A stretch of DNA of 57,933 bases. Origin: a virus. Shown one piece after another: positions 34,618-57,933 of the stretch. Below the pieces are notes generated by a model. It had not been told where the DNA came from. It searched no databases and was given only the letters and a program-made list of their open reading frames with translations. A program made the position numbers and the translations under genes. The stretch lies in IMG/VR virus record IMGVR_UViG_3300029922_000078, positions 1 through 57,933 of that record; one strand, written 5' to 3'. Position 1 is the first letter of the stretch; each line of letters starts with the position of its first letter.

Positions 34618-37600
34618 ATGAAAATGAGAACATTGAAAATCGCTCTGGCGCTGCTCGCAGCGCTTTGCATCCTCGCGCCCACGGCGCGCTCTCAATCTGT
34701 ACCTCTGGGCTGCACTAGGGTGTATGGTTTTGGACTACAGGATTCCAGCGGCAAATTGGCAAACAGGGCGCGCATCATATTTACCCCTGTGGATGCTACC
34801 GGTAATCGCCTGAGCTATCGCTCTCAGTGCGCAGTGAGTGGTCAGGTCTCTGCTGTGCCAGTGAGTGCGTTGGTGAGCAATGGAGCGTTTAGCCTGTTGC
34901 TGCCTGACACTACAATCACGAGCCCGCAGAATGTGTGCTTTGCGGTTACCGTGATCGATGTTGCATCAGGCAACAACTTGCTCGCATCTTCTGGGTATGC
35001 GTGCTCACAGCCGCATGCAACAGCGACGGGGGCAAGCGATTGGTGCCAGGCGAGTCAATGTGACTTTGACAACTTTGCGCCTAATCTGACTGCGCTCGCT
35101 GTGACCCAGACGGGGCCTCCTGGCGCTGCCGCAACAATTAGCGTGGGCGCGGTCACCGCATTGGCCCCTGGGAGTACGCCGACCGTAAGCAATACCGGCA
35201 GTCAAAATGCGGCGGTGCTCGCGTTTGGTTTGGTTACCGGAAACACGGGTGCAACTGGAGCTCAGGGTGCGACCGGACCCCAGGGATTGACGGGCCTCAC
35301 TGGGGCCACTGGTTTGCAGGGTGCTCAAGGTATCCAAGGCGCAACAGGCACGACGCCTACTTTTGCAATCGGTACCGTTTCTCCTCTTTCCGCTGGCGCT
35401 TCTCCGACTGTGACCGTTTCTGGCGGCCCAAACTACACGATGAGCTTTGGGCTCCCGGCAGGGGCAACGGGGGCGCAGGGGATTCAGGGCGTAACCGGAG
35501 CGACGGGAGCTGTAGGATCGATAGGGCCGCAAGGTATGCCAGGAAGCTCGGCGACCGTGGCTATCGGTACTACCACAACTGGGGCGGCTGGAAGCAGTGC
35601 CGCTGTGAGTAACGTTGGCACCAATACAGCAGCAGTGTTTAATTTCACCGTACCGCAGGGTGCTCAGGGCATACAGGGGGCAACTGGGGCGACTGGATCG
35701 ACCGGCGCGACGGGCGCTACCGGAACAGCCGCCACGGTGGCAGTCGGTACAACTGCTACAGGAGCGGCGGGCAGCAATGCCGCTGTGACCAATGCCGGAA
35801 CAAGCGCAGCAGCAGTGTTCAATTTCACTGTGCCGCAGGGCGCACAGGGCATACAGGGAATTCAGGGAACCACGGGCGCAATCGGGCCAACGGGCGCAAC
35901 TGGCGCAACCGGCGCGACGGGCCCGCAGGGCATCCAAGGTGCCACCGGGTCCACCGGAGCAACCGGCACGGCGGCAACAATCGCCGTTGGTATTACGACA
36001 ACAGGTGCAGCCGGGTCGAGCGCCACGGTCGGCAACTCCGGCACGACTGGCGCGGCTGTCTTTAATTTCACGATTCCGCAGGGTGCAACTGGGCCACAAG
36101 GCGCTACAGGACCTCAAGGCGCTACAGGTAATACAGGCCTGACCGGAAACACTGGACCTCAAGGCTCCATCGGAGTAACAGTGAACTACTCGCCGTCTAC
36201 GACCTACGCTCAAGGCGCAGTTGTGTTTTGTGCCGTGTGCGCAGCAACCGGATCAAGCTATGTCTCCCTTGCCGGGAATAACACAGGTAATGATCCATCG
36301 ACTACGAGCGGATATTGGCAGATGATCGCGGCGGCGGGAAGCGGACTTGTAACTAACACCCCGGCGTGGCTGACCATGCTCGGCACGGGCGCTGACGGCT
36401 CCTGTGTGGTGGGTACATCGTGCCTTGGCAGTTCCAGCAGCACCCTTACGATGGGCGGTGAGTATTACTTCACTAATTTTTCTGTGCCATATGGGGCTAC
36501 TGTACAAGTTGTCATGCAGGCCCCAACCGGAAGCAATCAAAACAGCCTTGTAGTACACGCCACCGGGGCCTGTACTGTGGCTGGCGAGATAGATGCTAGC
36601 TGGGACCTAATTCCGTTGATCGGTTCAAGCACGTATGGCTATGGCGGAGGAACAGGTGGAGTAGCAACGGGAACGGGTACGATAACTTATATCGGCAATT
36701 CTTCTATCAATGCCTTGCCAGCAGGGAAAGCGTACTCAGGAAATGGATACTCGCTAACGAACACGCAAATTCGTGGAATTCTCGGGGCCAACCCGTTTAA
36801 TGACGGTTTGTTTTTTAGAGGGTCGCCGGGGTCGCCGAATGGTAATATTTTTGTATATGGCGCCCCCGGACTGGGAATAACTTTAATATGCGGCTCTATC
36901 ATCGGCACAGACGGCGTGAACACGGGTACGCTGCTAGCCAACGGCGGCCCAGCAGCAACTTACTCTGCCGGGTCGGGCTACAATCAGGCTGGGGGCGGGG
37001 GCGGGGGCGTCGTTATCTTGTCTTCGCAGGCGACAATCGGCACTCTACCTGTCGTTAGTGTTGCAGGGGGGGCGGGTGAGATCGGAACGGCTGTTCTTGC
37101 TGCTCCATCACAGTCAGCCGTGACAACAATCACCACAGGCGGCTCCTGTGCTGCCAGCACACAGTATTGCTATCAAGTTGCGTCTCTGGAGGGTCCAAGC
37201 GGTATAAGTACGCCGCATTCAGAGCTATGTGTTACAACAGGGTCAACCACGAGCACGAACACGAATACTGTTCCCTGGAATGCTGTCTACGGAGCGACTG
37301 GGTACAACATCTACGGGCGCACAACGGGCGTTGAGCAACTTATCGGAACGGTCGGTGTGGGGACTACAACCCCATCATTTGTGGATACATGCACGGTAAC
37401 ACCCTCAGGGGCTTTGCCGACAGTAAACACCACAACTAACTGGTATAGCGTTCCTCAGGCTGTAGCAACAGCCGGAAGCTGCACCTCGCCACCGAAGGCT
37501 CTGCTCACAGCTACGAGCGGAGCACTTACGGCCTGCACGGTAATCCAGCAAGGCGCAGGGTGTGGTACTGGATCAGGTATCGTTTGGAAAATAATTGACC

Positions 37601-37770
37601 AGACAGGCGGTTTCAATGCCACCGGATCTATCACCCCCACATGGAGCAGTGGCTCAATGGTGAGTTGCACTGCATCGGGGGGAAGCGGGTATACGAACAC
37701 CGAATACGGTAGCAGCTTCAGCGGCGGAGACGGCGGAGCAGGTTGGTATGCAGTTTTTCAAGGATGGTAG
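34618..37770 (+). CDS. Collagen-like tail fibre with signal peptide (copy B)
   Basis: I chose ATG 34618, with a GAAGG site. The protein has 1,050 residues. It starts with a Sec-type signal peptide ([25 protein letters not shown], cut near 26), which is unusual for a virion fibre. Residues of about 200-500 are Gly-X-Y collagen-like repeats ([16 protein letters not shown] type), in four blocks separated by [11 protein letters not shown]-type beta units. The C-terminal 400 residues match copy A at the window start. It is probably the receptor-binding fibre. 36581 is the first base shared with the window start, so the gene may be a hybrid of two phage fibres. Confidence 0.8.
36581..36661 (+). repeat. 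Direct repeat unit, right copy (identical to 1-81)
   Basis: This is the internal partner of the repeat at the window start. On the right both copies diverge after base 36661 and converge again at several blocks, the longest being 104 identical bases (37558-37661 against 987-1090). Confidence 0.9.
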
Positions 37771-37772
37771 TA

Positions 37773-37890
37773 ATGGCGGACAAATACGATTTGCACAACA
37801 ATCCTGATGGCAGATTGCCGTATCGTCAGGTTTGACAATAACAGGAAACGTTGCTATTTCGGCAACTTGGCAATGCGTAATCTAATCAAG
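37773..37890 (+). pseudogene. Remnant of the small gene found after fibre copy A
   Basis: ATG 37773 opens a 20-codon frame (DKYDLHNNPDG) that aligns with the start of the gene at 1203 (DQIVDFQANADG), then stops at TGA 37833-37835. The rest of the 130-bp gap to 37902 holds no other frame with a good start. It is probably a truncated or frameshifted copy. Confidence 0.5.
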
Positions 37891-37901
37891 TAGGAGATCA
37901 C

Positions 37902-40145
37902 ATGAAGTCAACACTCAAATTCGCAGCGTTTCTTTTGATGGCGATTCCGTGCGCTGCGCAGGTGCAGATTGGTAACGGCGGATCTGTGCAGGTGGGCGCA
38001 AACGTCTCAGTAACTGGCTGCGGAGTATCGGCACCTTGCACGACCGCGCAGGGTGGCACGAGTGCCAACACTCCCAACGGCGGGATGTCCAATCTCGGCA
38101 TGACGCAGACTGGCACAGTGGGCACATCTTCCCAGGTGGACACTCTGCCCGGAATACTCAACGTCGTAGGCACCGTCGCGGCTGGCACTGCGGTGTCTGC
38201 GCCGATTGCAACCTTGGGATCTGCTAATGTGCAAGGCGGTCCAAACGCTGTCTCAACGATTATCTACGACGACGATTGCATGTCAGACGCCGACTGCTTT
38301 ATGACGCTGACGGCGCTGCATCACTGGATAGACACTGGCGAGACTAATGTATTAGCGATGGTGGCAGATGCGGCGGGGCTCGGCGCTCCTGTGATGTACA
38401 TCTACAACACGTATTACGGTCACTCTGTACCGATTGGGGCGTATCAGGGTGGTACCGTCTCTGCCGCATCGCCGTTTACGAATGCGGTGGCCCAATTCGA
38501 TCCCGGCGACACGCGGGCGAATTACCCCGATTGTGTCGTGACGCTGCGCACCGCACTTGCTGGGTCGGCAAACAGCAGCGTGACATATGTGGGGACCGGA
38601 TATGCAAATTGCCTGACGGAATTGCTTGCGAGTGGCGCTGATAGCATCTCGTCGCTAACCGGTGTGCAGCTAGTAAAGGCCAAAATCAGCAAGTATGTGC
38701 AGATGGGGGGTGACTATCCGACCGGAAGTGAGTACAACTTTATCGGGACACCTGCGCAGTGGAATACGATATTCTCGACGTGGACCACTGCTAATGGGTA
38801 TCCTCCAATTTATCTTGTAGGTGCAACAGCCGGAAATAACGCTGGTGGATACGGATTGCCGTGCTGGATTCCGCTCTCGCACCCTACGCAGTTTGTTGCC
38901 AACATTATTCATCCGTGTGAACCGGGCGGAGCGTGGGGGGTGATACCCTTTGATGTTCTGGCAGTGTATTACGGGATTTTCGGCAATTCAAATTCAGCCT
39001 TTACGCTGAGCGCAAGCGGTACCAATACTGTCAACGGTTCAACCGGCGCAAATTCGTGGTCGAGCAGTCCCGCATCTGGACAGTATTATCTGTCCGATGC
39101 GCAACCATCCATTTTCTACGAGTCTTATTTCGACGGATTTACTTTCAATGGCGCGGTCGGAAAACTGCCAGCCAGGATCTCCGGAACACTCGGCAACGTT
39201 GACCTGCAATGCACCTATCTGCATGGCTGCATTTTGCCTAATACGGTTTCTCAGGCGCTCAGTGGATTGATTGATCCGAGTTGGACTCAGACTGGAGCCA
39301 CCATGTCGAGTACGATGACTCCGTCAAGCCTGAGATTCGACCAGTCACAACATACGCAGACAGCCCCGTATGTATTCAACACGTTGGCCAACAACTCTGA
39401 AACAGAGGGGCTTGTAACTTTTGCTCCAAATATGAGTGCAGGTTATGCCCTTTCAGCCATTAAATTCGGCGTGATGGACAACACCTACGACCGGGCAAAT
39501 ATGTACTTCAACTACATTGGTGACGGGAGCAACATCAATAACATCGGTTTCGGATTTTACGGTACCGGTCAGTTGTTCCAGATGTATGCTTATGGTCTTT
39601 TCAAGGCCCCGATGATGGCGTTTGGAACTGGAAATAATGTAAGCAGCACTCGCGGTACAGGTGGAAATGTGCAGCTTGCGTGGACCGAGTCAAGCACTGC
39701 TAACGATGTTGCTATCTACGATGCAATAGGCAATGTGCATGATTCAGGCGTGCAGGTCGGCGGTACCGGGTCGCCCATCTTTGGCGTGGTCGGGTCCAAT
39801 GTGTCGCTTTCGAGCACGCAATACACCGCGCCCGGTGTTAGTTCTGTAACAGCGACCGAGACTTCTAAACAAACAATGATACCTGAATCGGGAACGCTTA
39901 GTTCGTTTTATCTGTTCACAACAACGGCTCAACCAAGTGACGCTGGGATGACAGTTACCGTGAGAGTAGCGGGAGCGGACACCGCCCTCACGTTCACGAT
40001 TCCGGCCAATGCGGCGGCAGGAACGTTTTCAGATCTTACACATTCCATGATAGTGACAGCGGGGCAAACACTCGGCGTGAAGTTCGTCAATTCGTCAACG
40101 AGCGCCAGTGCGGTCATTGGCGGATACGGAATCGTCTTGAAGTAA
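37902..40145 (+). CDS. Secreted/tail protein with nucleoside-hydrolase-like domain
   Basis: ATG 37902 has a TAGGAGATCAC site. The protein of 747 residues begins with a Sec signal peptide (KSTLKFAAFLLMAIPCAAQ). After a short Gly-rich beta part, residues of about 118-360 start STIIYDDDCMSDADCFMTLTALHH. This is close to the metal-binding D-x-D-x(4)-DxD start of inosine-uridine nucleoside hydrolases. APVMYIYNTYYGHSVPIGAYQGG also fits that fold (the APxxxxxxNTxYG-xxxPIG pattern). The C-terminal 300 residues are beta-rich and fibre-like. It may be a fibre with an enzyme-like receptor domain. Whether the calcium site is complete is unclear. Confidence 0.65.
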   Translation: MKSTLKFAAFLLMAIPCAAQVQIGNGGSVQVGANVSVTGCGVSAPCTTAQGGTSANTPNGGMSNLGMTQTGTVGTSSQVDTLPGILNVVGTVAAGTAVSAPIATLGSANVQGGPNAVSTIIYDDDCMSDADCFMTLTALHHWIDTGETNVLAMVADAAGLGAPVMYIYNTYYGHSVPIGAYQGGTVSAASPFTNAVAQFDPGDTRANYPDCVVTLRTALAGSANSSVTYVGTGYANCLTELLASGADSISSLTGVQLVKAKISKYVQMGGDYPTGSEYNFIGTPAQWNTIFSTWTTANGYPPIYLVGATAGNNAGGYGLPCWIPLSHPTQFVANIIHPCEPGGAWGVIPFDVLAVYYGIFGNSNSAFTLSASGTNTVNGSTGANSWSSSPASGQYYLSDAQPSIFYESYFDGFTFNGAVGKLPARISGTLGNVDLQCTYLHGCILPNTVSQALSGLIDPSWTQTGATMSSTMTPSSLRFDQSQHTQTAPYVFNTLANNSETEGLVTFAPNMSAGYALSAIKFGVMDNTYDRANMYFNYIGDGSNINNIGFGFYGTGQLFQMYAYGLFKAPMMAFGTGNNVSSTRGTGGNVQLAWTESSTANDVAIYDAIGNVHDSGVQVGGTGSPIFGVVGSNVSLSSTQYTAPGVSSVTATETSKQTMIPESGTLSSFYLFTTTAQPSDAGMTVTVRVAGADTALTFTIPANAAAGTFSDLTHSMIVTAGQTLGVKFVNSSTSASAVIGGYGIVLK

Positions 40146-40694
40146 TCAAGCTGAATACATCTGAACGGTACCTACTCGTCAGGTGGGAGGTAATTCGGGG
40201 CATGAAGCAGATACTCACGGCGCATACGTAGGCAACTAAGATGTGCGCGCTGCGGGGCCTGAGCAGGACCGCAGTGCGCCCTTCATTCCTTCCCGTCGCT
40301 CCAGTGCGGCGCGGTATCATTGCCCCAGACTGGCCGCTCATCGTGCACGATCTGCATGTCGTGGCAGCAATGCTCGCCGCTGGTATGCTTGCGCTTTGGA
40401 GTGCCCGTGCAGTACCGCGGCGCAAAGTCTGCCAGGCCGATGTACCCGCATTTGGACGGCAGTACGCCATGGCGCTGGGATATATATATACCTCATTGGC
40501 GTGACTGGGTCTCCTACTTTCCGATATGCGATGGTAGCGGAACGTCTTCAGTAGCTGAATAACCGCTGCGGTGCCCGAGCAGGACCGGCAGGACTCCAGT
40601 AATCGGGAAGCCGGGGTTGTAGAGATTACGGGCCTATCGCGGGGCGCGTCAAATCGCTGGAGGCAGAGATGGCGACAGCATTGCCAATTCTTAA
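40146..40694. other. Gene-poor debris with repeat elements
   Basis: No single frame in this 550 bp looks like an intact gene. Two copies of the intergenic element at 15702 occur at 40250-40274 and 40566-40591. Protein-like fragments occur on both strands: one ends WRDWVSYFPICDGSG on the + strand near 40550, and another, Cys/His-rich, is on the minus strand at about 40310-40480, with no good start. It looks like decayed cargo genes. Confidence 0.5.
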
Positions 40695-41090
40695 AGACCT
40701 GAAAACCGCAGCGGATCGGCGACTGAGGTACAGTATGCGCGAACTCTTTACCAAATTGGCTACGTGTATCGCGGTTCCACTTATGCTCTGGGTGGTTCCA
40801 AAGGCGGTGCTGGTGGCAACGGGGGCGGTGCGCTTATCCTTGTCTGCCCGACCATCGTTTTCACTGGCACCATTGATGCATCGTGTGGAGCAGGGGGCGC
40901 ATCGACTGGAAACAGTATCGGCGGTGGTAGTGGCGGTGGACTGGTTTTGATGTCGGCGCAGGTCTACAGCGCGAATACCGGAACCATCAATGTATCAGGT
41001 GGCGCGGGTGGCAGTTGTGGGTCGTATACGGGATGCGGCGCGGGTGGGACAGGTGCTGCGGGCAATAAGTATCAGGCCACCATCCAGTAG
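40695..41090 (+). pseudogene. Fragment of Gly-rich fibre protein
   Basis: The frame is open from about 40695 without a start codon before GTG 40764, and it ends at 41090. It encodes VQYARTLYQIGYVYRGSTY, then Gly-rich repeats (GGAGGNGGGALILVCPTIVFTG, GGGSGGGLVLMSAQVYS). The same Gly-rich strand pattern is in the two fibre copies ([16 protein letters not shown]). It is probably the 3' end of a fibre gene cut by recombination. Confidence 0.55.
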
Positions 41091-41156
41091 GAAACGTAGT
41101 TGCACGCTGCTTTGTGCACTATTATCTGAGTGGCATAAACTTCACGGGAGCTAGTC

Positions 41157-41744
41157 ATGATCTCAGTTCAAGAAGTTATTACCGACCCGGACATGGCTGC
41201 TCCTGAGCCTTACCAAATACTGCGGTCTACGGGCACTTACATTGCAGGCGGGTTCCAGAGTGTGACAACCACTATCTCGTGTTTTGGACCGGTTCAGCAA
41301 GCTAGCAACAAAGAAATTCAGATGCTGTCAGAAGCCGATCGTATTGGCAGTATCAGTGCCTTTTGGAGTACGCAGCCCGTTTACACCACGCGCGGAACGG
41401 CGGCAGTACCAAGTGTGCAAGGCGAAGTGCCTAGCGGAGCGGTTCCTGGTACGACTTACACACTGTCGCTTACCCCACCCGGTGGAGTCATCGACTTGTA
41501 TGTCAACAGGCTGCTGAAAACACCTGGTATGGACTATGTATTATCAGGCACGCGCATAGCACTCACCACGCCTACTCCATCGGGTGCAAAGCTGTGGGCG
41601 CAATGGAATGTCACGGCCAACGTGCAGGCTGCCGCCAGCGACATTCTGGTGTATGACAGTGTTCAGTACCGTGTACTTCAAGTTTACCACGACACTGGGT
41701 GCGGCTACTGGAAAGCACTAGGAACGCGGATGTCGGCGGCATGA
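41157..41744 (+). CDS. Neck/head-completion protein with inserted beta domain (myophage)
   Basis: The protein has 195 residues, with GGGAGCTAGTC before ATG 41157. It begins the contractile-tail module. The outer parts (ADRIGSISAFWSTQPVYTTRG and SDILVYDSVQYRVLQVYHDTG) look like the head stopper/connector type. Between them about 60 residues (TTYTLSLTPPGGVIDLYVNRLLKTPGMDYVLSGTRIALT) form a beta domain that recurs in the fibre-like protein at 53881. Its stop overlaps the next ATG. The gene before it (capsid side) is missing. Confidence 0.6.
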   Translation: MISVQEVITDPDMAAPEPYQILRSTGTYIAGGFQSVTTTISCFGPVQQASNKEIQMLSEADRIGSISAFWSTQPVYTTRGTAAVPSVQGEVPSGAVPGTTYTLSLTPPGGVIDLYVNRLLKTPGMDYVLSGTRIALTTPTPSGAKLWAQWNVTANVQAAASDILVYDSVQYRVLQVYHDTGCGYWKALGTRMSAA

Positions 41745-42349
41745 CGACTTCTACGACATATCCTAATGGCCAGACGCTTACCTCCACTGCCGTCACACAG
41801 CAGGCTATGCAGATTTTAATACAGAATGTGACATGCGGAGCGCTGGGAGTTAACCCACCTGATTACTCGCAGGTGAAAATTGATTGGCCGCAGGAAGGTC
41901 AGCCCTTTACACCGTTGCCGTCGGTCGATGGATGCTTCCTGGCCTGCGCCATCAAAGACGAAGATTACAGCAAGGTTCGCGACCAAGTGTTCAGCGGCAC
42001 CGGGCTAGTTACCGAGACGTGGGTCTACACGCGCGGTTGGCACATCGCTTGGACGCTGTATGGACCTAATGCGGTGGATCGTGCACGACAGCTTCACAGT
42101 GCCACTTTCATGGACTGGTTTAACGATCTACTGTCAACCAGCAATCTGTACCCACTCAGCGACCCGCCTAATCCTACTTACATTCCAGAGGCGTGGAACG
42201 CACAGTGGTGGCCGCGCAGTGATTTCTATCTTGATCTTTATGAGAAGGTTACCGAGACCATTCAGGACGGCGCAGTTACTAGCGTCGAGGTAAGTCTTAA
42301 CGCCGATGACCTGGGCAAGGTCGCGGACTTCACAGTTACTAAGGAGTAA
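41741..42349 (+). CDS. Tail terminator / neck protein (LIC_12616-like)
   Basis: ATG 41741 overlaps the previous stop. The protein has 202 residues. QVKIDWPQEGQPFTPLPSVDGCFLACAIKDEDYSKVRDQVF, TRGWHIAWTLYGPNAVDRARQLHSATFMDWFND and WPRSDFYLDLYEKVTETIQDG fit the terminator family placed before DUF3383 sheath genes in short-genome myophages. It joins neck and tail. Confidence 0.75.
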   Translation: MTTSTTYPNGQTLTSTAVTQQAMQILIQNVTCGALGVNPPDYSQVKIDWPQEGQPFTPLPSVDGCFLACAIKDEDYSKVRDQVFSGTGLVTETWVYTRGWHIAWTLYGPNAVDRARQLHSATFMDWFNDLLSTSNLYPLSDPPNPTYIPEAWNAQWWPRSDFYLDLYEKVTETIQDGAVTSVEVSLNADDLGKVADFTVTKE

Positions 42350-42355
42350 GAAATC

Positions 42356-43750
42356 ATGGCCAATGTGCCTCCTCTGTCCCTCAGCGACATCGTGGACATT
42401 TCCGTTACGGTGGCGCCATCGGCCGTGACGGCCAACAGTTTTAACCAGGGTATCATCATCGGCCCTAGCACCGTCATTCCTTCTTACGGTGCCAACCCAC
42501 GCCTGCGTCAGTACGGTGCAGGGGCTACCGCCGCTTTGAACGGCATGTTAGCTGACGGTTATACGTTGGCTAGCCCGGAGTACATTGCCGTGCAGATTTA
42601 CTTCAGTCAGACACCTGCGTCTTCATACGCGTGGGTCGGTTGCCAGGATCTCACCGCGTTGCAGACTATCACTATCAATGCGGCCGGCACGGGCTGGGCC
42701 GTGGGTGATACATTCAGTGTAGTCGCTTCTGGAGGTAGCCATGGCGTGGGCACTATTCTCGCCGCAACGGGCGGTGTACCCAGTTCTATCGGAGTCGCCA
42801 TTCAAGGCACCGGCTACGCGGTTGAGGCAGCCACCACGACTGCCATAGTGCCCTCCGTCGGCGCTGGCCTGACCGTTCATATCACGGCAGTGGGTGAGAC
42901 GCTCCTACAGGCCTCTGAGGCATGCCGCGCGGCTAATTCGACGTGGTATGGATTGATGGTCTGCGGTCCGACAGACGCTGACAATTTGGCCATCAGTACC
43001 TGGGCCGATCCATTGTGGGCTACCACGCGCTACTATCCGTGGTCTAGTACGGCTGCAATTCCGGCTGGCACAGCCGGAAACCTAGCCTTAGAGTTGCAGA
43101 CGCTGAAGCTGCGCGTGATCGGAACTTATGCCACCACGCAAAGCGGTTTGTACCCTAACAACATCTACGCGGCCGCAGCTGCCATGGGTGTTGAAATGGG
43201 TTTGAACACCGGGCTGGCTAATAGTTTCTTTACCATTGCACACAAGCAGCTAGCCGGCATTGCACCTGAGCCGCTTAGCCAGACACAGTACAACACCATC
43301 ATCGCGGCGGGCTTCAACGCTTGTTGCAACTTCGCACCTTATCAGTTGTATGAACCTGGTTTCATGTCCAACGGTGCACCTAGTTATCTGTGGCTGAACC
43401 TCGCCATGTTGGTGGCCAATCTGCAAATCAATGAGCTGAATGTGCTACAGAGCACCGTGGCTGTGCCGCAGACCAACGCAGGCGAGCACTTACTGATTCA
43501 AGCTGCTAACTCGGCTTGCGACACTATGGTGAGTATCGGTTTCCTGTCCGGCGCTGTGTGGGAAGGTGCGCCGGTGTTAAATCTGACTACCGGGCAGGCC
43601 TTGCCATCCGGCTACTTGAATCAAGCCGCACCCTACGCGCAGCAGTCAGCTGGTGACCGAGCTGCTGGCAAGGCGATGCCGATCTATTGCGCGGTGACGA
43701 CGGCGGGCGCAGTTCAGAGTCTGCTCGTCGGCGTGTATACGCAGCTCTAA
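42356..43750 (+). CDS. Tail sheath protein (DUF3383-type)
   Basis: The protein has 464 residues. The start LSLSDIVDISVTVAPSAVTANSFNQGIIIGPS and the order of the C-terminal half (YPNNIYAAAAAMGVEMGLN, FFTIAHKQLAGIAPEPLSQTQYNTIIAAGFNACCNFA, LMLVANLQINELNVLQS type) are those of DUF3383 sheath proteins. A beta-rich insert of about 80 residues (95-175, GTGWAVGDTFSVVASGG) is a decoration domain. The contractile sheath drives the tube through the envelope. A 100-bp gap follows, with an inverted repeat TCGGGGA/TCCCCGA (43763-43769/43812-43818). Confidence 0.85.
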   Translation: MANVPPLSLSDIVDISVTVAPSAVTANSFNQGIIIGPSTVIPSYGANPRLRQYGAGATAALNGMLADGYTLASPEYIAVQIYFSQTPASSYAWVGCQDLTALQTITINAAGTGWAVGDTFSVVASGGSHGVGTILAATGGVPSSIGVAIQGTGYAVEAATTTAIVPSVGAGLTVHITAVGETLLQASEACRAANSTWYGLMVCGPTDADNLAISTWADPLWATTRYYPWSSTAAIPAGTAGNLALELQTLKLRVIGTYATTQSGLYPNNIYAAAAAMGVEMGLNTGLANSFFTIAHKQLAGIAPEPLSQTQYNTIIAAGFNACCNFAPYQLYEPGFMSNGAPSYLWLNLAMLVANLQINELNVLQSTVAVPQTNAGEHLLIQAANSACDTMVSIGFLSGAVWEGAPVLNLTTGQALPSGYLNQAAPYAQQSAGDRAAGKAMPIYCAVTTAGAVQSLLVGVYTQL

Positions 43751-43846
43751 AGAGCTCAACATTCGGGGATAGGGTCTCGAGCCTGACAAGTGCGGCATCA
43801 CTCACCGTGCTTCCCCGATTAACTTTGAGTGCACAGGGAGTGGCTT

Positions 43847-44848
43847 ATGTGCGAAGCAGTTTGTGACAAGCACTTAATTTCTGAGTGCACTGTTTGCGAA
43901 GCTAAATTGCTAGAGGCAGTGAAGGGCCGGCTAGACTTAGCTACTGAACCTTGGGGATGTATCTACAAGTTAACAAGCATCAAGAAGCCGAAGAAGTGCT
44001 ACGTCGGAAAAGATAAGAGTGGCGACCCTGCGCGTCATAGATGGAAGGGCCACCTTGCTGACGCGTTTGCCGAGAAGGATCGCAGGCCGCTGTACAGCGC
44101 GCTTAGAAAGGCCGACCGAGAATCGGGCGGTCTTACCGTAGGCTTTACCGCTGAAGTAATTTGGCGTGGCCCAAGATCACTTCTGAACGAGAAAGAAATT
44201 TATTACATCAAGAAGTGCCGTGCATTCATTGATGAAGGTGGCTATAACTTGACGCGCGGCGGTGACGGGCTGAGCCTCGGATTTAAGCACTCTGAGCAAG
44301 CTAAGAGAAACATGAGCGCAGCGCAAATTAACAATTATGCGAAGCCAGGCAGACTGGAGCGCCAAAGTACTGCGATGCTACGGTGCTACGAAGATTTAGC
44401 GGAGCATGAAAAGAAGAGCGTGGCACAGTTGCGTAGCTATGCTGAGCACCCTGAACGACGCGCACAGCAGAGTGCCATATTACGACTTCGGTATGAAGAC
44501 CCCGACGAACGCGCAAAATCTGGCAGAGCACACCAAGCATACTGGGCCAAGCCAGAGTCGCACGAAAAGGCGTGCATCGCCGTGCAGCTTCGCTATGCAG
44601 ATCCGGCGGAACGCGAGAAGCAACGCATCGGTACTACGCACCGATATGAGGACCCAGTAGAACGCGAAAAGACACGCAGCATAACGGTGCTGCGATACGA
44701 AAACCCAGCAGAGCGCGCAAAGACGGGCGCAACATCGAAGCGTGCCTGGGATCGTAAAACACCCGAAGAACGCGCAGCATTCGGAGCGGCCGTAAGTCGC
44801 GGGCGCAAAGGAATAACATCTAACAACTCAACGAAGACAAAGAGGTGA
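43847..44848 (+). CDS. GIY-YIG homing endonuclease
   Basis: I chose ATG 43847, with CAGGGAG upstream. The protein has 333 residues. Residues of about 35-70 (GCIYKLTSIKKPKKCYVGKDKSG) are the GIY-YIG core in IY/YVG form, followed by RHRWKGHL with the catalytic Arg. EVIWRGPRSLLNEKEIYYIKKCRAF carries the Glu. GFKHSEQAKRNMSAAQ is a NUMOD3-like DNA-binding motif. Then come about eight units of 15-20 residues (RYEDPAEREK pattern), probably helices for DNA binding. It is a free-standing mobile gene between sheath and tube genes. Confidence 0.85.
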   Translation: MCEAVCDKHLISECTVCEAKLLEAVKGRLDLATEPWGCIYKLTSIKKPKKCYVGKDKSGDPARHRWKGHLADAFAEKDRRPLYSALRKADRESGGLTVGFTAEVIWRGPRSLLNEKEIYYIKKCRAFIDEGGYNLTRGGDGLSLGFKHSEQAKRNMSAAQINNYAKPGRLERQSTAMLRCYEDLAEHEKKSVAQLRSYAEHPERRAQQSAILRLRYEDPDERAKSGRAHQAYWAKPESHEKACIAVQLRYADPAEREKQRIGTTHRYEDPVEREKTRSITVLRYENPAERAKTGATSKRAWDRKTPEERAAFGAAVSRGRKGITSNNSTKTKR

Positions 44849-44852: not shown

Positions 44853-45308
44853 GTGGGCGTCGGCGCAACTTACAGTTTCAAAGCATTAGTCGGAGTTTTA
44901 GTAAATTCGGTCTTTGGCGTCAGCATTCCGCTCACCGGCGGCAATGTTGGCTTTGGCCAGATGACTGTTACCATGACGACGGAGCGCACCGCGCACGATG
45001 TTGCGGCGGACGGTACAGTGCTTATTTCGTACATTGCCGGCGACAACGGCGACATCGCGATCGAAGTCCAGGAGTCGTCCGTCCTGCACTCGGCGTTGCT
45101 CAGCCTCTACAATCAGGCCATCACGGCAGCTAACAACGACGATGTTAGTGGTTGGGCCGCAACTACTATCAGCTTCCGCATGCTTACGGACGGCACCAGC
45201 CATGTTCTGAGCGGTGTAAGCTTTGGAAAAATTCCTGACAAACCTTATCAAGCGTCTGGGCAGAAAATCACTTGGCGCATGATGGCGGCCAATATCGTTA
45301 ACCAGTAG
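44853..45308 (+). CDS. Tail tube protein (DUF3277-type)
   Basis: GTG 44853 follows the endonuclease by four bases. The protein has 151 residues. TYSFKALVGVLVNSVFGVSIPLTGGNVGFGQMTVTMTTERTAHDVAADG and SGWAATTISFRMLTDGTSHVLSGVSFGKIPDKPY are typical of DUF3277 tube proteins that pair with DUF3383 sheaths. It forms the rigid inner tube. Confidence 0.8.
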   Translation: MGVGATYSFKALVGVLVNSVFGVSIPLTGGNVGFGQMTVTMTTERTAHDVAADGTVLISYIAGDNGDIAIEVQESSVLHSALLSLYNQAITAANNDDVSGWAATTISFRMLTDGTSHVLSGVSFGKIPDKPYQASGQKITWRMMAANIVNQ

Positions 45309-45333
45309 ATACCTATCCTGCAAGGAGGACATG

Positions 45334-45777
45334 ATGCACGAAGCTACAATCGTAGTACCAGTTGACGGCGTAAACTATCAGATACGCCGAATGACGCCCG
45401 CCGTAGGAAGTTACATTTGGCAGCGCCTTATGGCCGCCGTGTACAAGGCGAGCGAAGGGCGAAAGGACGAAGTATCTGCGGAGCCTGTAGCAGAGGTTCC
45501 GCAGCCCAGCAACGCAGATCGCCTGCGCGCCATGTGTGGCGTGGCCTTCATGTATCTAGACTTCGACGACTTTGAGTTCGTGCAGAAGAACTGCATGCGC
45601 ACGGTGTCGCGCGAAGAACCTGGCATGGGGTACATTCCAGTAGTGGCGGACAGCGGGCAGTGGGCCGCCAAGGACTTGGAAACAAATCCTTTTACGATCA
45701 CACGCCTGATGGTGGAGGTCTTGGTCGTGAACCTCGCGAGTTTTTTGGAATCCGGCGCGGCTCTGACAGCGAAGTAG
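45334..45777 (+). CDS. Tail assembly chaperone (short form, myophage)
   Basis: Starts at ATG 45331 or 45334 both follow AAGGAGG; 45334 has the better spacing. The protein has 147 residues. It begins EATIVVPVDGVNYQIRRMTPAVGSYIWQRLMA, a typical chaperone start, and ends shortly after a T run. The frame overlaps the -1 frame extension, and the slippery heptamer TTTTTTG lies 30 bases before its stop. It helps the tape measure to fold before tube growth. Confidence 0.75.
   Translation: MHEATIVVPVDGVNYQIRRMTPAVGSYIWQRLMAAVYKASEGRKDEVSAEPVAEVPQPSNADRLRAMCGVAFMYLDFDDFEFVQKNCMRTVSREEPGMGYIPVVADSGQWAAKDLETNPFTITRLMVEVLVVNLASFLESGAALTAK
45741..45747 (+). other. Candidate -1 frameshift site TTTTTTG
   Basis: In frame it reads agT TTT TTG, a canonical X XXY YYZ site. 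After a -1 slip the product continues as FFGIRRGSDSEVEWNP to the stop at 45974. No ribosome site and start are seen for the downstream frame, which favours frameshifting. Confidence 0.75.
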
Positions 45778-45974: not shown

Positions 45975-47590
45975 ACGTACTCGACGAGTATATGATTCGG
46001 CTAGGAACCTCGGTGGACGCCGCAGGCCTTTCGCGCTTTCACAACGCGTTGCACGAGGCTCGTCAAGCCGTCGACTCTAACATGCAGTCGATGGCCGGGG
46101 CGATGCTGAAGACTTCGACGGAGTTGGTCAGCGGCTTTGCGGCAATCGGCGGTGCGGCAGTTGGTTTGGCTGACAAGGTGGCGATGGCTGATCAGAACTA
46201 CCGCCTCTTCGCGTTAAGGCTATATATGTCAAAAGACGCAGCCCGCAGTCTCAAGGTCACCATGGACGCACTCGGCGAGCCGATGGAAAACCTGATGTGG
46301 GACCCCGAGCTGCGAGAGCGGTCCAAACAGCTTATCGCCGATCAGAAGGCCATGGCCACCGACATGGACTTTGATGCACAGATGCGTAAGATTCGCGATG
46401 TGCGGTTCGAGTTCACGCGCATGGAGGTCGAGGTCAAATACCTCGGCATGCACGTTGTAACTGACTTTATGAAGGCCCTGGGAATGGGCCCTGATGATTT
46501 GCTGAAGAAGCTGCGTCAGGTAAATGACTGGATCATCAAGCACATGCCTGAAATCTCGGCGACAATCGTCAAATACTTCAAGCCAATCTGGAAAGACATC
46601 GTCACCATCATGAAGGACGTAGGCCATGTCTTTCAAGACTTTGCCACGATATTTGATAACGTGGTGGCAATGCTTTCTGGCGACAAGACCCTGCGAGGTG
46701 TGGCTACTTTCGATAAGTTTGCGCATTCAGTGTCGATTATTGTCGACTGGCTGGCTAAGGTCACAGACTTCTTGGTACAAATCACCGGGCTACTGTCTGG
46801 TGCACTTGTAGGCGGCACCGTCGGCGGATTGCTAGGCTCCATCGTCGGCGGCATCGCAGGCATCCCCGGCGGTCCTGCTGGCATCGCGGCGGGCATCGCG
46901 GCGGGCGGGGCTACTGGAACCGCCATCGGTGCTGGCGCAGGCGCTGTGACGGGCGGTACATTCGACATCTACCGGCACTATGCACTAGATCAAGTTGGAG
47001 GCGCTGGTCTTACTGGCACTCCACACATGACTCACGTACCTGGTGTGGCGGACCAATCGTGGCGTACTCTAGCAGGTGCTACGGGTGGCGCGGTTAGTCC
47101 TGAGTTATTGTCAGCTCTGGCACGGTCGGAATCCGGATCGCTCGGCATGTCGGCCGTTAGTTCGAGGGGCGCAGTCGGTTACATGCAGCTTATGCCTGGC
47201 ACAGCCGCGCAGTATGGCGTTGATCCATACAACCCGGTAGATAACTTGCGCGGCGGTACTGCTTACATGCGCGACCTGATGAAGCGGTACAGCGGCAATG
47301 AAGCTTTAGCCCTTGGGGCCTACAACGCCGGTCCAGGTCGGATGGACGCCGTGCTAGCTGGCAAGGCTACACTGCCTGAAGAAACCAGGAACTACATCGC
47401 CTCGACACTCGCTCGTGAAGGCAAGTCTGGCAGTGTCCAGATAGGTTCCGTTACCATTCAAATAACTCAGAAGCCGGGTGAGAGTCAGCAGGAGTTGGCC
47501 ACTCGTACGGCTACCGCACTGCGTGATGTCGCGGGAAAGCAGACGCAGCGTAACTTGGCCGAGTTCAACGCCGTTAGCTGGAGTTACTAA
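45971..47590 (+). CDS. Tape measure protein with lytic transglycosylase domain
   Basis: GTG 45971 overlaps the previous stop. The protein has 539 residues, short for a tape measure and so for a short tail. Helical N-terminal half (about 1-260), then Gly/Ala-rich membrane segments (about 270-330, GGLLGSIVGGIAGIPGGPAGIAAG type). Residues of about 375-470 form a lytic transglycosylase domain: SALARSESGSLGMSAVS with the catalytic Glu, GAVGYMQLMPGTAAQYG, YNPVDNLRGGTAYMRDLMKRY and ALGAYNAGPGRMDAV. It would cut peptidoglycan during DNA injection. Confidence 0.85.
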   Translation: MNVLDEYMIRLGTSVDAAGLSRFHNALHEARQAVDSNMQSMAGAMLKTSTELVSGFAAIGGAAVGLADKVAMADQNYRLFALRLYMSKDAARSLKVTMDALGEPMENLMWDPELRERSKQLIADQKAMATDMDFDAQMRKIRDVRFEFTRMEVEVKYLGMHVVTDFMKALGMGPDDLLKKLRQVNDWIIKHMPEISATIVKYFKPIWKDIVTIMKDVGHVFQDFATIFDNVVAMLSGDKTLRGVATFDKFAHSVSIIVDWLAKVTDFLVQITGLLSGALVGGTVGGLLGSIVGGIAGIPGGPAGIAAGIAAGGATGTAIGAGAGAVTGGTFDIYRHYALDQVGGAGLTGTPHMTHVPGVADQSWRTLAGATGGAVSPELLSALARSESGSLGMSAVSSRGAVGYMQLMPGTAAQYGVDPYNPVDNLRGGTAYMRDLMKRYSGNEALALGAYNAGPGRMDAVLAGKATLPEETRNYIASTLAREGKSGSVQIGSVTIQITQKPGESQQELATRTATALRDVAGKQTQRNLAEFNAVSWSY

Positions 47591-50991: not shown

Positions 50992-52206
50992 ATGGCTTAC
51001 GCGCCTCCTACCGTCACCGCCGCTGGGCTCACTGTAGCGACTTACCAAGACATTCTAGCAGACAACCTTCAGGCCTATCTTAACATCTACGGCCAGAATC
51101 AGTACATTGGCAAAGACAGCGCGATTTATCAGCTGCTGTCGATCTTGTCGTTAAAACAGTCAGACGCCAACCTGGGCCTTCAGCTAGTTTACAACCAGTC
51201 GTCACCGCAGACGGCCGTTGGCGCAGGTCTGGACCGTGTCGTCAAGATGAATGGTCTTGCGCGCGAGCCATTCGGCTACTCGACCGCTGTACTAACACTT
51301 AACGGTACGTCTGGCATTCCGGTAACTAATGGCTATGCACAGGATCAATCGGGCAATCTCTGGGCACTGCCGGCGACGGTGACCTTGGTAGGTGGTACCG
51401 CTGCGGCGACTGCTACGTGTACCACGCCGGGTAACATTGAAGCTGAACCTGGCACCATCAACATCATAGCAACACCTGTAAGCGGCTGGGCTACGGTGAC
51501 TAACGCGGCAGCTGCGATAGCTGGTACCGCCGTCGAAGCCGACTCACAGCTACGTGCTCGACAGTCTATCAGTGTAGCGCTGCCCTCACTCACACCGCTA
51601 GCAGCTACGGTAGCTGCCGTACTCGCTGTATCAGGCGTGACACGCGTAGCACCTGGTTACCCCACGCCCGGTGGTCCAGGATCATCGATCGAGAATCCTA
51701 CCGGAGCCACCGATAGCTGGGGCAACCCAGCGCACTCGGTTTCTATGGCTGTCGAAGGTGGTACGGATTTGGCCGTGGCCACTGCCATCTACTCCAAGAA
51801 GACCATAGGCTGTGCCAGTCACGGCTCTACGGCAGTGCCGATTACTGACGCCAACACTGGCTACATAGAGGTCATCAGTTTCTACCGGCCAGCCTACGTG
51901 CCAATCTACGTCAGCGTAGCCATTCATGGTTACAGCGCAGTACCGACCACCACAGTGCAGGCAGCGGTGCAGGCGGCGGTAGTTAACTACTTGAATGAGT
52001 TGTCGATCGGTGAGACGGTGCCTATCTCGGCCGTCAATTACGTGGCCATGGCAGTTAACGCCAGCCTGCCGGCGCCCGCGTTCGGAGTGCAGACTTTGAC
52101 AATGGGCATAGCTGCAACTCCGACTGGAACTTCTGATGTGGCCATGCCTACTTTTTATAGTGTGGCAAGCGGCGTGACTGCCAACGTTGTAGTAAGCGTG
52201 GTGTAG
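50992..52206 (+). CDS. Baseplate protein J (gp47-like)
   Basis: The protein has 404 residues. QDILADNLQAYLNIYGQNQYIGKDSAIYQLLSILSLKQSDANLGLQLVYNQSSPQTAVGAGLDRVVKMNGLAR, then GNIEAEPGTINIIATPVSGWATVTNAAAAIAGTAVEADSQLRARQS, are the hallmark parts of baseplate J/gp47. It forms the baseplate wedge ring, around the hub. The gene order Dit-plug-hub-spike-gp46-gp47-DUF2612 is complete. Confidence 0.88.
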   Translation: MAYAPPTVTAAGLTVATYQDILADNLQAYLNIYGQNQYIGKDSAIYQLLSILSLKQSDANLGLQLVYNQSSPQTAVGAGLDRVVKMNGLAREPFGYSTAVLTLNGTSGIPVTNGYAQDQSGNLWALPATVTLVGGTAAATATCTTPGNIEAEPGTINIIATPVSGWATVTNAAAAIAGTAVEADSQLRARQSISVALPSLTPLAATVAAVLAVSGVTRVAPGYPTPGGPGSSIENPTGATDSWGNPAHSVSMAVEGGTDLAVATAIYSKKTIGCASHGSTAVPITDANTGYIEVISFYRPAYVPIYVSVAIHGYSAVPTTTVQAAVQAAVVNYLNELSIGETVPISAVNYVAMAVNASLPAPAFGVQTLTMGIAATPTGTSDVAMPTFYSVASGVTANVVVSVV

Positions 52207-52883: not shown

Positions 52884-53879
52884 ATGGCCACAAGTAACTT
52901 TCTACAGTGGAATCCGACGGCTGCGAATCAAGAGTCAGATTCAACTTACCTGGCAGACTCACAGCGCGTAGGCGGTGCCACAGATCCATCTATCTTCGAC
53001 GCCGCGCTGGCTAACAAACTGTTCTATCAACTTTCGACCGGCATGACTGCTCTGATGCAAATGATGGCCTACAAGGGCTTTCCAGTGTCAGACGCCAGCC
53101 TTGGCACGCTGGCCGCACAACTGGCGAACATACTTACCACGGCCGACCTGCGTGGCTATGCCGGACTACAGACGGTGCCATATGCATCGTCTGTAGTCCT
53201 CAACGCTGGGCAGTATCTAAACTGGCAAGTGGCGCTCAATGGTAACACATCAATCACAGTAGCAGGTGCCTTGCCCGGTGATCTGCTCACGGTGATATTC
53301 GTCAATGACAGTACAGGCGGTCACACTGTTAGTTGGTCGGCTCCATTTGTGAATGGTGCTCAGCCAGGTGCAGCCGGCGGCGCTACCAGCATTTGTACGT
53401 TCAAGGTAAGGTTAGATGGCTCAGTCGTGCCTTCTGGGCCGGTGATGATGCTGGGCGGTGTAGTCAATACTGCGATCGACAGCTCACCGATAGGTGCTAC
53501 TACACCGTCTACTGGAATCTTCACTACTGCGGCGGCGAGTGTGCAACTCACAGCACCTACCGTAGCGTCGACGGATAACAGTACCAAGGTAGCTACCACG
53601 GCATGGGTTCAGTATTTAATGGCAAACTCTATACCCGGTTCTCAAAGTGTAACCCTGCCAGGTGGTTTCATCATTAAGTATGGAACTATCAGCGACATGA
53701 GCTACGGCGCGGTCACGTTTGATACACCGTTTCCTACTGCGGTGCTCGGCTACGCCTGTGCGACGGGCGGGTACTATGACAGGATAACGTTCTTCAACGT
53801 AATTCCATCCACCACCGGGTTCAGCTTGGCTAATAACGGGTCAGGTGCCAGTGCTGGATGGATCGTGGTGGGGCACTAA
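52884..53879 (+). CDS. Tail fibre with gp53-like C-terminal domain
   Basis: The protein has 331 residues, starting three bases after the previous stop. The N-terminal part (FLQWNPTAANQESDSTYLADSQRVGGATDPSIFDAALANKLFYQLSTGMTALMQMMAYKG) is the usual baseplate-binding part. LTAPTVASTDNSTKVATTAWVQ is a Phage_fiber_2-type repeat. The end (FIIKYGTISD, VTFDTPFPTAVLGYACATGGY, TTGFSLANNGSGASAGWIVVGH) is a gp53-like receptor-binding tip. It is the main fibre of the contractile phage. Confidence 0.8.
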   Translation: MATSNFLQWNPTAANQESDSTYLADSQRVGGATDPSIFDAALANKLFYQLSTGMTALMQMMAYKGFPVSDASLGTLAAQLANILTTADLRGYAGLQTVPYASSVVLNAGQYLNWQVALNGNTSITVAGALPGDLLTVIFVNDSTGGHTVSWSAPFVNGAQPGAAGGATSICTFKVRLDGSVVPSGPVMMLGGVVNTAIDSSPIGATTPSTGIFTTAAASVQLTAPTVASTDNSTKVATTAWVQYLMANSIPGSQSVTLPGGFIIKYGTISDMSYGAVTFDTPFPTAVLGYACATGGYYDRITFFNVIPSTTGFSLANNGSGASAGWIVVGH

Positions 53880-53880
53880 T

Positions 53881-54618
53881 ATGGCAAGTGAGACCACGAC
53901 GCCGAACATTGGGCTACAGATAGCCGCCTTTAACCAGTCTAACTGGCAGGTGCCAACTAACTTCAACTGGAATATGTTGGATTTAATTTTTGGCGGCCAG
54001 ATTCAGATTCCTGCACTAGACGTAGCCAACTTCGCGGTGGCTAACGTCGCGGCGTTACTCGTGCCGTGGTTTAAGAGTGAGCAGCCGGCAGGCGTTATTC
54101 CAGGTTCTGTGTATACGTTGAGCTACGCCCCGGTGCTGCTTTTTGGAATATACCAGAACGGCTTGTTGCTACGACCCGCACTTGATTACACGTTAAATGG
54201 CAACGTAGTGACGCTAGCTGCGGCCACTACCGCGTCCACCGATACTATATGGGCAATCTACTTGTGGGAGGCTGCAGCATGGTCTGGAACGTTCCCAGCA
54301 CCGAGCGGCGTAGCGTCTGGTCTAGTCACAGTACCGTGGTCGACTACGCCGGTCTTCGATGCTTCAAAAGGCCTTCAGTTTAACATCACACTTACCGGCA
54401 ACGTAGTAAACAGCTTATTCATCAATGGTGCGGCTGGGCCCACTGTGGTAGTGCTGACCATAGTGCAGGATGCCACTGGCGGGTGGACATTCGTCTGGCC
54501 TTCGAACATGCACAACGGTGGTGTGGTAGATACAGACGCCGGTTCTACCAGTACACAAATGTTTGCGGTCAACGCTGACGGTAGTGCAAACGCAGTTAGT
54601 CCAATGATGTATTCTTAG
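53881..54618 (+). CDS. Fibre-like virion protein
   Basis: I chose ATG 53881, at the previous stop. The protein has 245 residues. Its N-terminus (TTTPNIGLQIAAFNQSNWQVPTNFNWNMLDLI) resembles the head fibre candidate at 26874. The middle (SVYTLSYAPVLLFGIYQNGLLLRPALDYTLNGNVVTLAAATT) is the same beta domain as in the neck protein at 41157. The C-terminal part is a fibre-type beta domain (TVVVLTIVQDATGGWTFVWPSN). It is probably a second, small fibre or fibre accessory. Confidence 0.65.
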   Translation: MASETTTPNIGLQIAAFNQSNWQVPTNFNWNMLDLIFGGQIQIPALDVANFAVANVAALLVPWFKSEQPAGVIPGSVYTLSYAPVLLFGIYQNGLLLRPALDYTLNGNVVTLAAATTASTDTIWAIYLWEAAAWSGTFPAPSGVASGLVTVPWSTTPVFDASKGLQFNITLTGNVVNSLFINGAAGPTVVVLTIVQDATGGWTFVWPSNMHNGGVVDTDAGSTSTQMFAVNADGSANAVSPMMYS

Positions 54619-54627: not shown

Positions 54628-55671
54628 ATGGTGCGCAAAGTATTACTGACTGCCATTTTAATCGGCACTGTCACAGCGGCATTTGCACAATCTCATCAGG
54701 GACCGACCAAGGTGACAGGTACCTTGGAAGTTACAGGTCAAACCACGTTTGACAATGCGCTGCACATGCCACTGATCGCTGCTTTAAGCGGGCATACCTA
54801 CTGCCTTCAGATTGACTCTGCCGGCAACATCACTAACACCGGAGCAGCGTGCGGTGGTAGCGGCAGTGGGTCCGTTACCAGTTTTGCTGCACCATCAGCA
54901 AGCTGGCCCTCATGGCTTGTGCCAACCGTAACAAACTCTACCACTACACCGTCGTTGGCTGTGTCTGCCAGCGCAATTCCTAACAGTGCACTGGCCAGCA
55001 GCGCCACCACTGTTAATGGTCAGACCTGTACCCTAGGTTCTACATGCTCAGTAACTGCTGCGGCCGCTGGTGTCAGCGTAGGCACAACGACAGTTGGAAG
55101 CGGTACGAACGGTTATATACTCTACAACAATGCCGGTACACTTGGCAACCTGGCGACGACCGGTGCAGGTTCGGTAGTTCAAGCTGCAAGCCCGGCACTG
55201 ACTGGAGTGCCTACGGCACCCACGGCAGCGGCAGGTACGAATACACCTCAAATTGCGACTACCAGTTTTGTGCAAAATTCTCTGACTAATTATCTGTTCA
55301 TCTTGCCTGCAAGTTGGAGTGTTCAGAGCACGCTGTTTTCCACGAGCACAATGCTTGGAAGCGTATACTACGTGCAGTATACAAGTCCAGTATACCCGAC
55401 AATGACCGTGCGGTTGTCTGGCGCTATCTCGTGTACGGTAGCACCGATAGTGAACCTTATGGACCTCGGTGTTTCTCCTACTACAGCCTATGGAAGTGCG
55501 ACGTCTATAGGTTCGGTGACGACCGGTACGTCCGATGGTGTGTACGGTTCTGGAACCGCCGTGATCGGCGGCACAGTGACAACGACCGGGCATTACTACG
55601 GAATAGCCTTCAGCGCCGGGACCTGCGCGACTGCCCCGACATTCGATATCAGCGTGCTTTCAGTGTGGTAA
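54628..55671 (+). CDS. Fibre-like protein with signal peptide
   Basis: AGGAG precedes ATG 54628. The protein has 347 residues. It starts with a Sec signal peptide (VRKVLLTAILIGTVTAAFAQ), then VTGTLEVTGQTTFDNALHM, and PALTGVPTAPTAAAGTNTPQIATTSFVQNSL, a common tail-fibre repeat. The C-terminal domain is beta-rich. This is the third fibre-like protein of the window with a signal peptide. It could be exported by infected cells or attached to virions after release. Confidence 0.7.
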   Translation: MVRKVLLTAILIGTVTAAFAQSHQGPTKVTGTLEVTGQTTFDNALHMPLIAALSGHTYCLQIDSAGNITNTGAACGGSGSGSVTSFAAPSASWPSWLVPTVTNSTTTPSLAVSASAIPNSALASSATTVNGQTCTLGSTCSVTAAAAGVSVGTTTVGSGTNGYILYNNAGTLGNLATTGAGSVVQAASPALTGVPTAPTAAAGTNTPQIATTSFVQNSLTNYLFILPASWSVQSTLFSTSTMLGSVYYVQYTSPVYPTMTVRLSGAISCTVAPIVNLMDLGVSPTTAYGSATSIGSVTTGTSDGVYGSGTAVIGGTVTTTGHYYGIAFSAGTCATAPTFDISVLSVW

Positions 55672-55728
55672 CCGCAAGACTCAGTACTGCGGTTACTTCT
55701 TTACGACGGTACGGATTGGGAGGTACTG

Positions 55729-56211: not shown

Positions 56212-56220
56212 GAGAACATT

Positions 56221-56316
56221 ATGCCGCACGATCCACCGCCAGACTCTTGTATCGCAAAGCCGATACCCAACAAGTCAGATTTACCGACTCCTGAGGATCT
56301 TCGAGAAAAGAAATGA
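56221..56316 (+). CDS. 31-residue Pro-rich peptide
   Basis: AGGAGAACATT precedes ATG 56221, and its TGA overlaps the next ATG (ATGA at 56313). The peptide is Pro/Asp/Lys-rich (PHDPPPDSCIAKPIPNK) with no membrane segment. Tight coupling with the spanin-like gene supports it. Function unknown. Confidence 0.5.
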   Translation: MPHDPPPDSCIAKPIPNKSDLPTPEDLREKK

Positions 56317-57038: not shown

Positions 57039-57217
57039 TTCTAATTGCATTAGTGCTTGAGATTATCACCGCAGGTTGGCTTTTCTACCGCATCAAAGGC
57101 GACACAACTGACGGTGACGTGGGGCTCGGTCTGCTCTTCTGGGCTTTGTGTATTCTGTACGTAGCTATTGATGCTGCGTGGTTTGCTATCCTGGTTTGGA
57201 AGGCGGTGCATCCATGA
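57035..57217 (+). CDS. Small membrane protein (paralogue of 24573-24758)
   Basis: ATG 57035 overlaps the previous stop. The protein of 60 residues has two membrane helices and the same middle motif (GDTTDGDVGLGLLFWAL) and end (DAAWFAILVWK) as the protein at 24573 (DGAWAGILIWK). Its place in the lysis cassette suggests a holin-like or antiholin role. Confidence 0.6.
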   Translation: MILIALVLEIITAGWLFYRIKGDTTDGDVGLGLLFWALCILYVAIDAAWFAILVWKAVHP

Positions 57218-57546
57218 GCGGAAACTGGGCGGCCGGGTTCCTCCGGTCGCAGTTAAGCGATAAAGACGGGTCAGTATCCAACACCCGCGTACTGCAGTGC
57301 ATGATAATCTGCCACGCGTTAGGCTGGGTAAGTGCGCTGTTATTTCTGTACGGGCTCGTCACCTATAAGACGCATGGCATCATTACTATGACTGACGTGG
57401 TGACCTTCGTCGGCGCCGCTGGAACCTTCGTTACAATGCTCGTCGGCACCCTTGGACTTATCAAGGGCGGCACCGACGTAGCCAATAACCGGGCGCCGAA
57501 TGCGCAGGATCAAGTTCAGCCGCCCGCCCAACCGAAACAGCCGTAA
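57214..57546 (+). CDS. Two-helix membrane protein, holin candidate
   Basis: ATG 57214 overlaps the previous stop. The protein has 110 residues. RSQLSDKDGSVSNTRVLQCMIICHALGWVSALLFLYGLV, then VVTFVGAAGTFVTMLVGTLGLIKGG, give two membrane helices with a soluble N-terminus, followed by a Pro/Gln-rich tail. The N-terminal SxxDGSVSNTRV pattern is frequent in small phage holin-type proteins. It stands close to the endolysin gene. Confidence 0.6.
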   Translation: MSGNWAAGFLRSQLSDKDGSVSNTRVLQCMIICHALGWVSALLFLYGLVTYKTHGIITMTDVVTFVGAAGTFVTMLVGTLGLIKGGTDVANNRAPNAQDQVQPPAQPKQP

Positions 57547-57563
57547 GGCAAGGAGATCAAACC

Positions 57564-57746
57564 ATGTTCCATACCGCAGTTACATTCGCAATCGGTGCCG
57601 GTGTCGGTGTTCTCATCGGCGTAAGCTTTGGTTCCAAAGTTCGCACTGAAATCAAGGTAGGTTTCGACAACCTTGCCAACCGCGTGGAGTCCGCTATCAT
57701 CGGTGCGGCGGCGAAGATTGAGGCTGCCATCAAAGGGAAACTGTGA
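57564..57746 (+). CDS. Small membrane protein of lysis cassette
   Basis: AAGGAGATCAAACC precedes ATG 57564. The protein of 60 residues has one Gly/Val-rich membrane segment (VTFAIGAGVGVLIGVSFG) and an amphipathic helical tail (NLANRVESAIIGAAAKIEAAI). Its stop overlaps the next ATG. Possibly a lysis accessory or pinholin-like protein. Confidence 0.5.
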   Translation: MFHTAVTFAIGAGVGVLIGVSFGSKVRTEIKVGFDNLANRVESAIIGAAAKIEAAIKGKL

Positions 57747-57933
57747 TGTCGACTGTCGCTGTTGCCTGCCGTCAGTACGGGCCTGCACTGCTGCACCTTC
57801 CGCCAGGTCTAGACGGCGCGCAGGTACTGTGGGCCTTGTCTGGCAATGAATCTAGTTTCGGCGTCAACTGCACGCCGCGTCACGAACCTGCTTTTGACCA
57901 AGGCGGTGTTTACGGCGACGGACCTGTAATGCG
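57746..57933 (+). CDS. Endolysin, N-terminal part (cut by window end)
   Basis: ATG 57746 overlaps the previous stop, and the frame is open to the window end (62 codons). VLWALSGNESSFGVNCTPRHEPAFDQGGVYG has the ESSFG motif with the catalytic-type Glu of lysozyme or transglycosylase-like endolysins. It is the expected last gene of the lysis cassette. Confidence 0.65.
   Translation, partial: MSTVAVACRQYGPALLHLPPGLDGAQVLWALSGNESSFGVNCTPRHEPAFDQGGVYGDGPVM

Follow-up and report, generated by a model that had tools for sequence, protein, structure and literature searches.

Chimeric contigs that combine different viruses have been described in a simulated-community benchmark, where they were tied to conserved functions or shared sequences (PMC3901335). 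Tail-fibre sharing between distantly related phages, for example Alteromonas phages, has also been reported (PMC10579305). Phages of different types are known to exchange fibre tips. The DNA analyzed here (the window) makes up an entire IMG/VR virus record, listed as 'linear', with a length of 57,933 b. It is most likely an assembly artefact that consists of a circular siphophage genome and part of an unrelated contractile-tailed phage; a hybrid phage with two tails is not supported. Like the benchmark chimeras, the contig mixes different viruses, but in this case the presumed connecting sequence is identifiable as an exact 81-b fibre segment, and a second record shows the correct continuation. 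As in the Alteromonas phages, host-recognition genes are common to phages with unrelated backbones. Unlike in that case, the partners are a siphophage and a contractile-tailed phage, the similarity is in the fibre tip (81 b exact within ~1.2 kb at 86% identity), and both are represented by metagenome contigs only.

The siphophage resembles HK97-type temperate siphophages, including Acidobacteriaceae prophage relatives (Granulicella paludicola DSM 22464, L170) with J proteins that are ~50% identical. Several of these relatives have an integrase, and those in IMG/VR share the gene order tape measure, fibre, Dit, T, gene P, and J. Unlike the integrated relatives, the siphophage in the window was recovered as a closed circle. 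The second phage resembles DUF3383-sheath contractile phages (KPP10/Pam3/E217-related families; Burkholderia phage Magia; Klebsiella phage Mulock), with which it shares the DUF3383 sheath, KPP10_Orf10 tube, Pam3 gp18 plug, and J-type wedge. It differs from the listed records of this group in that its sheath is only 25-33% identical to theirs, an extra fibre cassette lies between capsid and neck genes, and its close relatives are metagenome contigs only.

We consider it probable that the contig is an assembly chimera in which the siphophage circle was glued to a contractile-phage fragment through the 81-b repeat (repeat P). This reading is based on a siphophage closure without the contractile part in another record, the lack of relatives with both systems, and a switch in nucleotide composition. 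Bases 1 to ~36,661 would then represent one complete circular siphophage genome with 36,580 b of unique sequence, closing with a repeat of its own first 81 b. From ~36,787 onward, the sequence would be a fragment of a contractile-tailed phage, including the fibre cassette of that phage. The two phages would carry a homologous fibre gene and have repeat P exactly in common.

Gene families confirm the original prediction that non-contractile and contractile tail systems occur in one contig. The siphophage is characterized by HK97-type head genes and a long non-contractile tail, and everything left of 36786 belongs to it. Its terminase, portal, protease, and major capsid protein (19712-26216, +) form the single head-gene set in the window, with the terminase at 19712-21562 and the HK97-type major capsid protein at 24939-26216 (both +). 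They are followed by a major tail protein, a chaperone-like gene, and a tape measure (29645-34520, +), located at 29645-30118, 30464-30865 (a weak family match to tail protein/chaperone-like genes), and 31902-34520, respectively. A fibre gene encoding an apparent signal peptide and collagen repeats completes this side (34573-36786, +); its right end is set where exact identity with the IMG/VR contig L065 ends. The distal tail genes are found at the other end of the contig (1566-6566, +) and encode the distal tail protein Dit (1566-2255), a tail protein (2237-2806), a small protein conserved in relatives (2797-3264), and a J-like protein (3267-6566). Their order is kept in 14 siphophage relatives (L146-L159), in which tape measure, a variable fibre gap, Dit, T, gene P, and J follow one another without interruption wherever contig coverage allows. 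In these relatives, one operon comprises tape measure, optional fibre, Dit, and J. The non-contractile set is complete, as originally proposed, but its apparent split in two is an effect of the contig opening a circular genome inside the fibre gene. A tyrosine integrase follows on the opposite strand (6684-7883, -). Besides this integrase, the siphophage carries a ParB-like gene with ParB_N and HTH_ParB domains (9482-11326), which might enable plasmid-like maintenance.

The contractile tail module of the second phage spans 41157-53879 (+). Gene families identify a neck protein (41157-42349), a DUF3383 sheath (42356-43750), a KPP10-type tube (44853-45308), the chaperone TAC (45331-45777), and a tape measure with an SLT domain (45947-47590; all +). 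The tape measure is followed by Dit-like, plug (Pam3 gp18), and hub genes, a gp25-like gene at 50599, J at 50992, an I-like gene at 52210, and fibres from 52884 onward (+). Further fibre genes extend to the contig end (53845-57933, +). In sequence comparisons with solved structures, the region 50992-52206 gave weak to moderate matches to baseplate wedge proteins and the sheath gave none. The neck-protein region 41157-41744 has a domain that also occurs in the fibre at 53845-54618. A free-standing GIY-YIG-type homing endonuclease gene (43829-44848) sits between sheath and tube. This gap has no such gene in L003 but related sequence in L011, and similar-looking ORFs lie near capsid genes in L025 and L048.

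Upstream of the neck gene, the contractile phage's fibre cassette (37771-41156, +) comprises an ORF (37902-40145) and a Gly-rich stretch (40764-41090). No relative of the ORF was confirmed in IMG/VR, and it had no Pfam or PHROG match. The Gly-rich stretch is apparently a remnant, a fibre C-terminus that lacks a corresponding N-terminal part. In contractile relatives (62 loci), the neck genes are preceded by a capsid module. In the record of L003 (G001), whose sheath is 94% identical, the capsid module is followed by ~14 kb of signal-peptide fibre genes and then by the homologue of the gene at 41157. Given this order, the window's 36.8-41.1 kb region fits the contractile phage's own fibre cassette. 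The consecutive large fibre-like genes of L003's record (~6528-20400) are unusual in both site and size. The contractile capsid module is absent from the window, so that the contig does not show two complete genomes in one molecule, although a longer molecule may extend beyond the contig end. Of the full contractile set that had been proposed, the tail module is therefore substantiated, but the phage is incomplete.

The two parts are linked by fibre sequence. Repeat P occupies 1-81 (+), so that the contig's first base is also the repeat's first base, and recurs exactly at 36581-36661 (+), the presumed bridge of the chimeric join. The first copy continues into allele segment a (82-212, +), the only stretch where L065 departs from the siphophage part, and the second copy into allele segment b (36662-36777). 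The siphophage fibre gene has its 3' end at 1-1199 (+) and its 5' part at 34573-36580, in frame across the closure. The fibre 3' end linked to the contractile phage (36787-37770, +) is roughly 90% identical to 222-1199. Overall, 1-1199 and 36581-37770 are about 86% identical and share a further exact run of 104 b (987-1090 and 37558-37661). The link through duplicated 3' ends of a shared fibre gene had been read correctly, with an 81-b exact repeat and homology that extends to 1199 and 37770.

L065 (IMGVR_UViG_3300030044_000515; 19,626 b) is an independent IMG/VR contig that corresponds to window positions 27068-36786 joined to 213-10128 with zero mismatches. It continues differently from the window at the junction, passing on the siphophage side from 36786 into 222 and not into 36787. 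The two matches overlap by 9 b, ATTCTCGGG, at 36778-36786 and 213-221. Compared with a simple join of 36580 to 1, L065 has 54 differing positions, all within window positions 82-217, and the fibre reading frame is open through the closure in all three versions. L065 encodes no contractile genes. Because it is continuous across the closure, the siphophage closes on itself as a circle of 36,580 or 36,565 b (36.57-36.58 kb), and contigs of several siphophage relatives (35-41 kb) fit a 36.6 kb genome. The original prediction had called for a search for either half in other genomes, and L065 carries siphophage sequence alone. The possibility that one phage lineage naturally encodes two tail types accommodates the presence of all genes on one contig with intact frames, but it is already contradicted by this record, in which 19.5 kb of identical sequence from the same siphophage occurs and the contractile part does not. 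Relatives have one system each, composition differs between the halves, and the single head-gene set is that of the siphophage; we regard this possibility as extremely remote.

Segment b, which the window links to the contractile phage, sits before the siphophage 3' end in L065, joined through the 9-b identity. K-mer assemblers are not known to join sequences at 9 b. This joint is too short for a k-mer artefact, so that of the three combinations seen, one or more are probably genuine recombinants. A mutagenesis (DGR-type) origin of the difference between a and b was considered and rejected. The L065 segment is identical to 36662-36777 and shows indels against a, which looks like exchange rather than base-directed mutation. 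A fibre-tip segment was probably exchanged recently between the siphophage and contractile types. In one reading, both alleles exist in the siphophage population, and b was passed between it and the contractile phage; in the other, the window is a genuine cointegrate and L065 its siphophage parent. The former needs one small exchange and an ordinary assembly error. If real, the occurrence of one fibre tip in phages with different tails would suggest that they have the same target cells.

The layout of the contig suggests how the join may have arisen. The contig starts exactly 81 b upstream of the divergence between a (82-212) and b (36662-36777), and the exact stretch common to both sides at the junction is 81 b, with the 104-b run further in. 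With a de Bruijn graph at k=81, all paths would break at a common 81-mer that has two entries and two exits. A break at repeat P would leave two contigs, one a siphophage circle with P at its ends and the other the contractile phage beginning with P. A merge or path step could then glue both contigs through P, and acceptance of an 80-b overlap would give this record. A JGI pipeline has been documented with SOAPdenovo -K 81 and minimus2 OVERLAP=80 (PMC5369317), and it may have made this record by such a k=81 and merge-overlap mechanism. The match between k=81 and an 81-b repeat is a coincidence of numbers, not proof. The original prediction had left a choice between an assembler crossing an 81-bp repeat and a hybrid phage or tandem prophage; the former is retained, and the latter has no independent support.

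A true cointegrate would have arisen from a single crossover that joined two circular genomes within their fibre genes, with the window being real DNA that opens in the second phage's fibre. L065, in which b is joined to the siphophage 3' end, equally fits the siphophage parent of such a reciprocal crossover. The window would then show both recombinant joints, a with the siphophage 3' end and b with the contractile-side 3' end, all in frame. However, record searches recovered the siphophage-parent-like L065 but not the predicted second parent, which would have a in front of the contractile-side 3' end, and the contig end coincides precisely with the repeat, as would be typical of an assembly break. 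The 1.2-kb direct repeats would be expected to destabilise the fusion, and 36.6 kb plus a contractile phage of probably at least 40 kb would overfill a 36-kb head. An abundant and stable two-genome molecule would be needed, of which no other trace was found. We thus consider a cointegrate unlikely, and give similarly little weight to the specific version in which a real reciprocal crossover at the 9-b identity fused a temperate siphophage and a contractile phage, with L065 as the unrecombined siphophage parent. Searches for repeat P in other records returned L065 only, an exact search for the junction of b to the contractile side matched no other record, and, as a point against the assembly chimera, record searches yielded no contig of the contractile phage that includes the 5' end of its fibre gene.

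Related records and nucleotide composition favor the assembly chimera. The sheath occurs in 11/20 related records and the siphophage J in 9/20, and no record has both (0/20), which also speaks against a cointegrate; these records were drawn from separate sheath and J searches and many are fragments, making the result supportive rather than proof. A megablast search of 50,697 phage records with the 33.0-57.9 kb region gave no match. The k-mer comparison of the halves proposed originally revealed different tetranucleotide profiles, with a distance of 0.36 between halves and ~0.23 within them (p=0.003). Leave-out Markov scores per kb are positive in 35/36 intervals left of 36 kb, fall through intermediate values at 36-41 kb, and are mostly negative beyond 41 kb. 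Composition thus switches across 36.8-41.2 kb, and the fibre cassette of L003's record is likewise intermediate. Siphophage-like scores at 36787-37770 would agree with a siphophage-like source from which the contractile phage obtained its fibre tip. Taken together with L065 and the contig start 81 b before the allele divergence, these data uphold the chimera that the original prediction offered as an alternative. The IMG/VR entry should be split near 36.6 kb to separate a circular siphophage that is probably complete from the fragment of a contractile-tailed phage; left unsplit, it would falsely tie two unrelated phage groups in gene-sharing networks.

Siphophage J relatives were found in Granulicella paludicola and an Acidobacteriaceae MAG, and in 22/300 genomes of the family of G. 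paludicola (Acidobacteriaceae). The contractile sheath had only two weak matches in the 300 family genomes and no prophage was found, so no host was identified for the contractile phage. A host common to both phages is plausible. Two prophages in tandem in one bacterial chromosome would agree with the Acidobacteriaceae prophages related to the siphophage and with its integrase. This arrangement is nevertheless highly improbable: the join lies inside a fibre gene with no attachment site at the boundary, the window has no tRNA, and no chromosomal genes were recognized between the modules. Furthermore, the integrase region is within continuous phage sequence, flanked by J and replication genes, and contractile relatives were not found as prophages in the 300 family genomes beyond the two weak matches.

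Two other Acidobacteriaceae family genomes encode proteins with 57-62% identity to the fibre's C-terminal 107 residues. One is a 436-aa protein (L185, 8388-9698) beside an unidentified element with a packaging-ATPase-like gene, and the other a 2604-aa protein (L186, 8854-16668) near a head-tail adaptor gene. Apparent Sec signal peptides, recognized by eye, start fibre-like proteins of both phages in the window (34573-34680, 37902-37960, and 54628-54690), in L165 (6528, 9763, and 12995), and in L003's record (5400 and 6920). Such signal peptides are odd for virion fibres, which are assembled in the cytoplasm.
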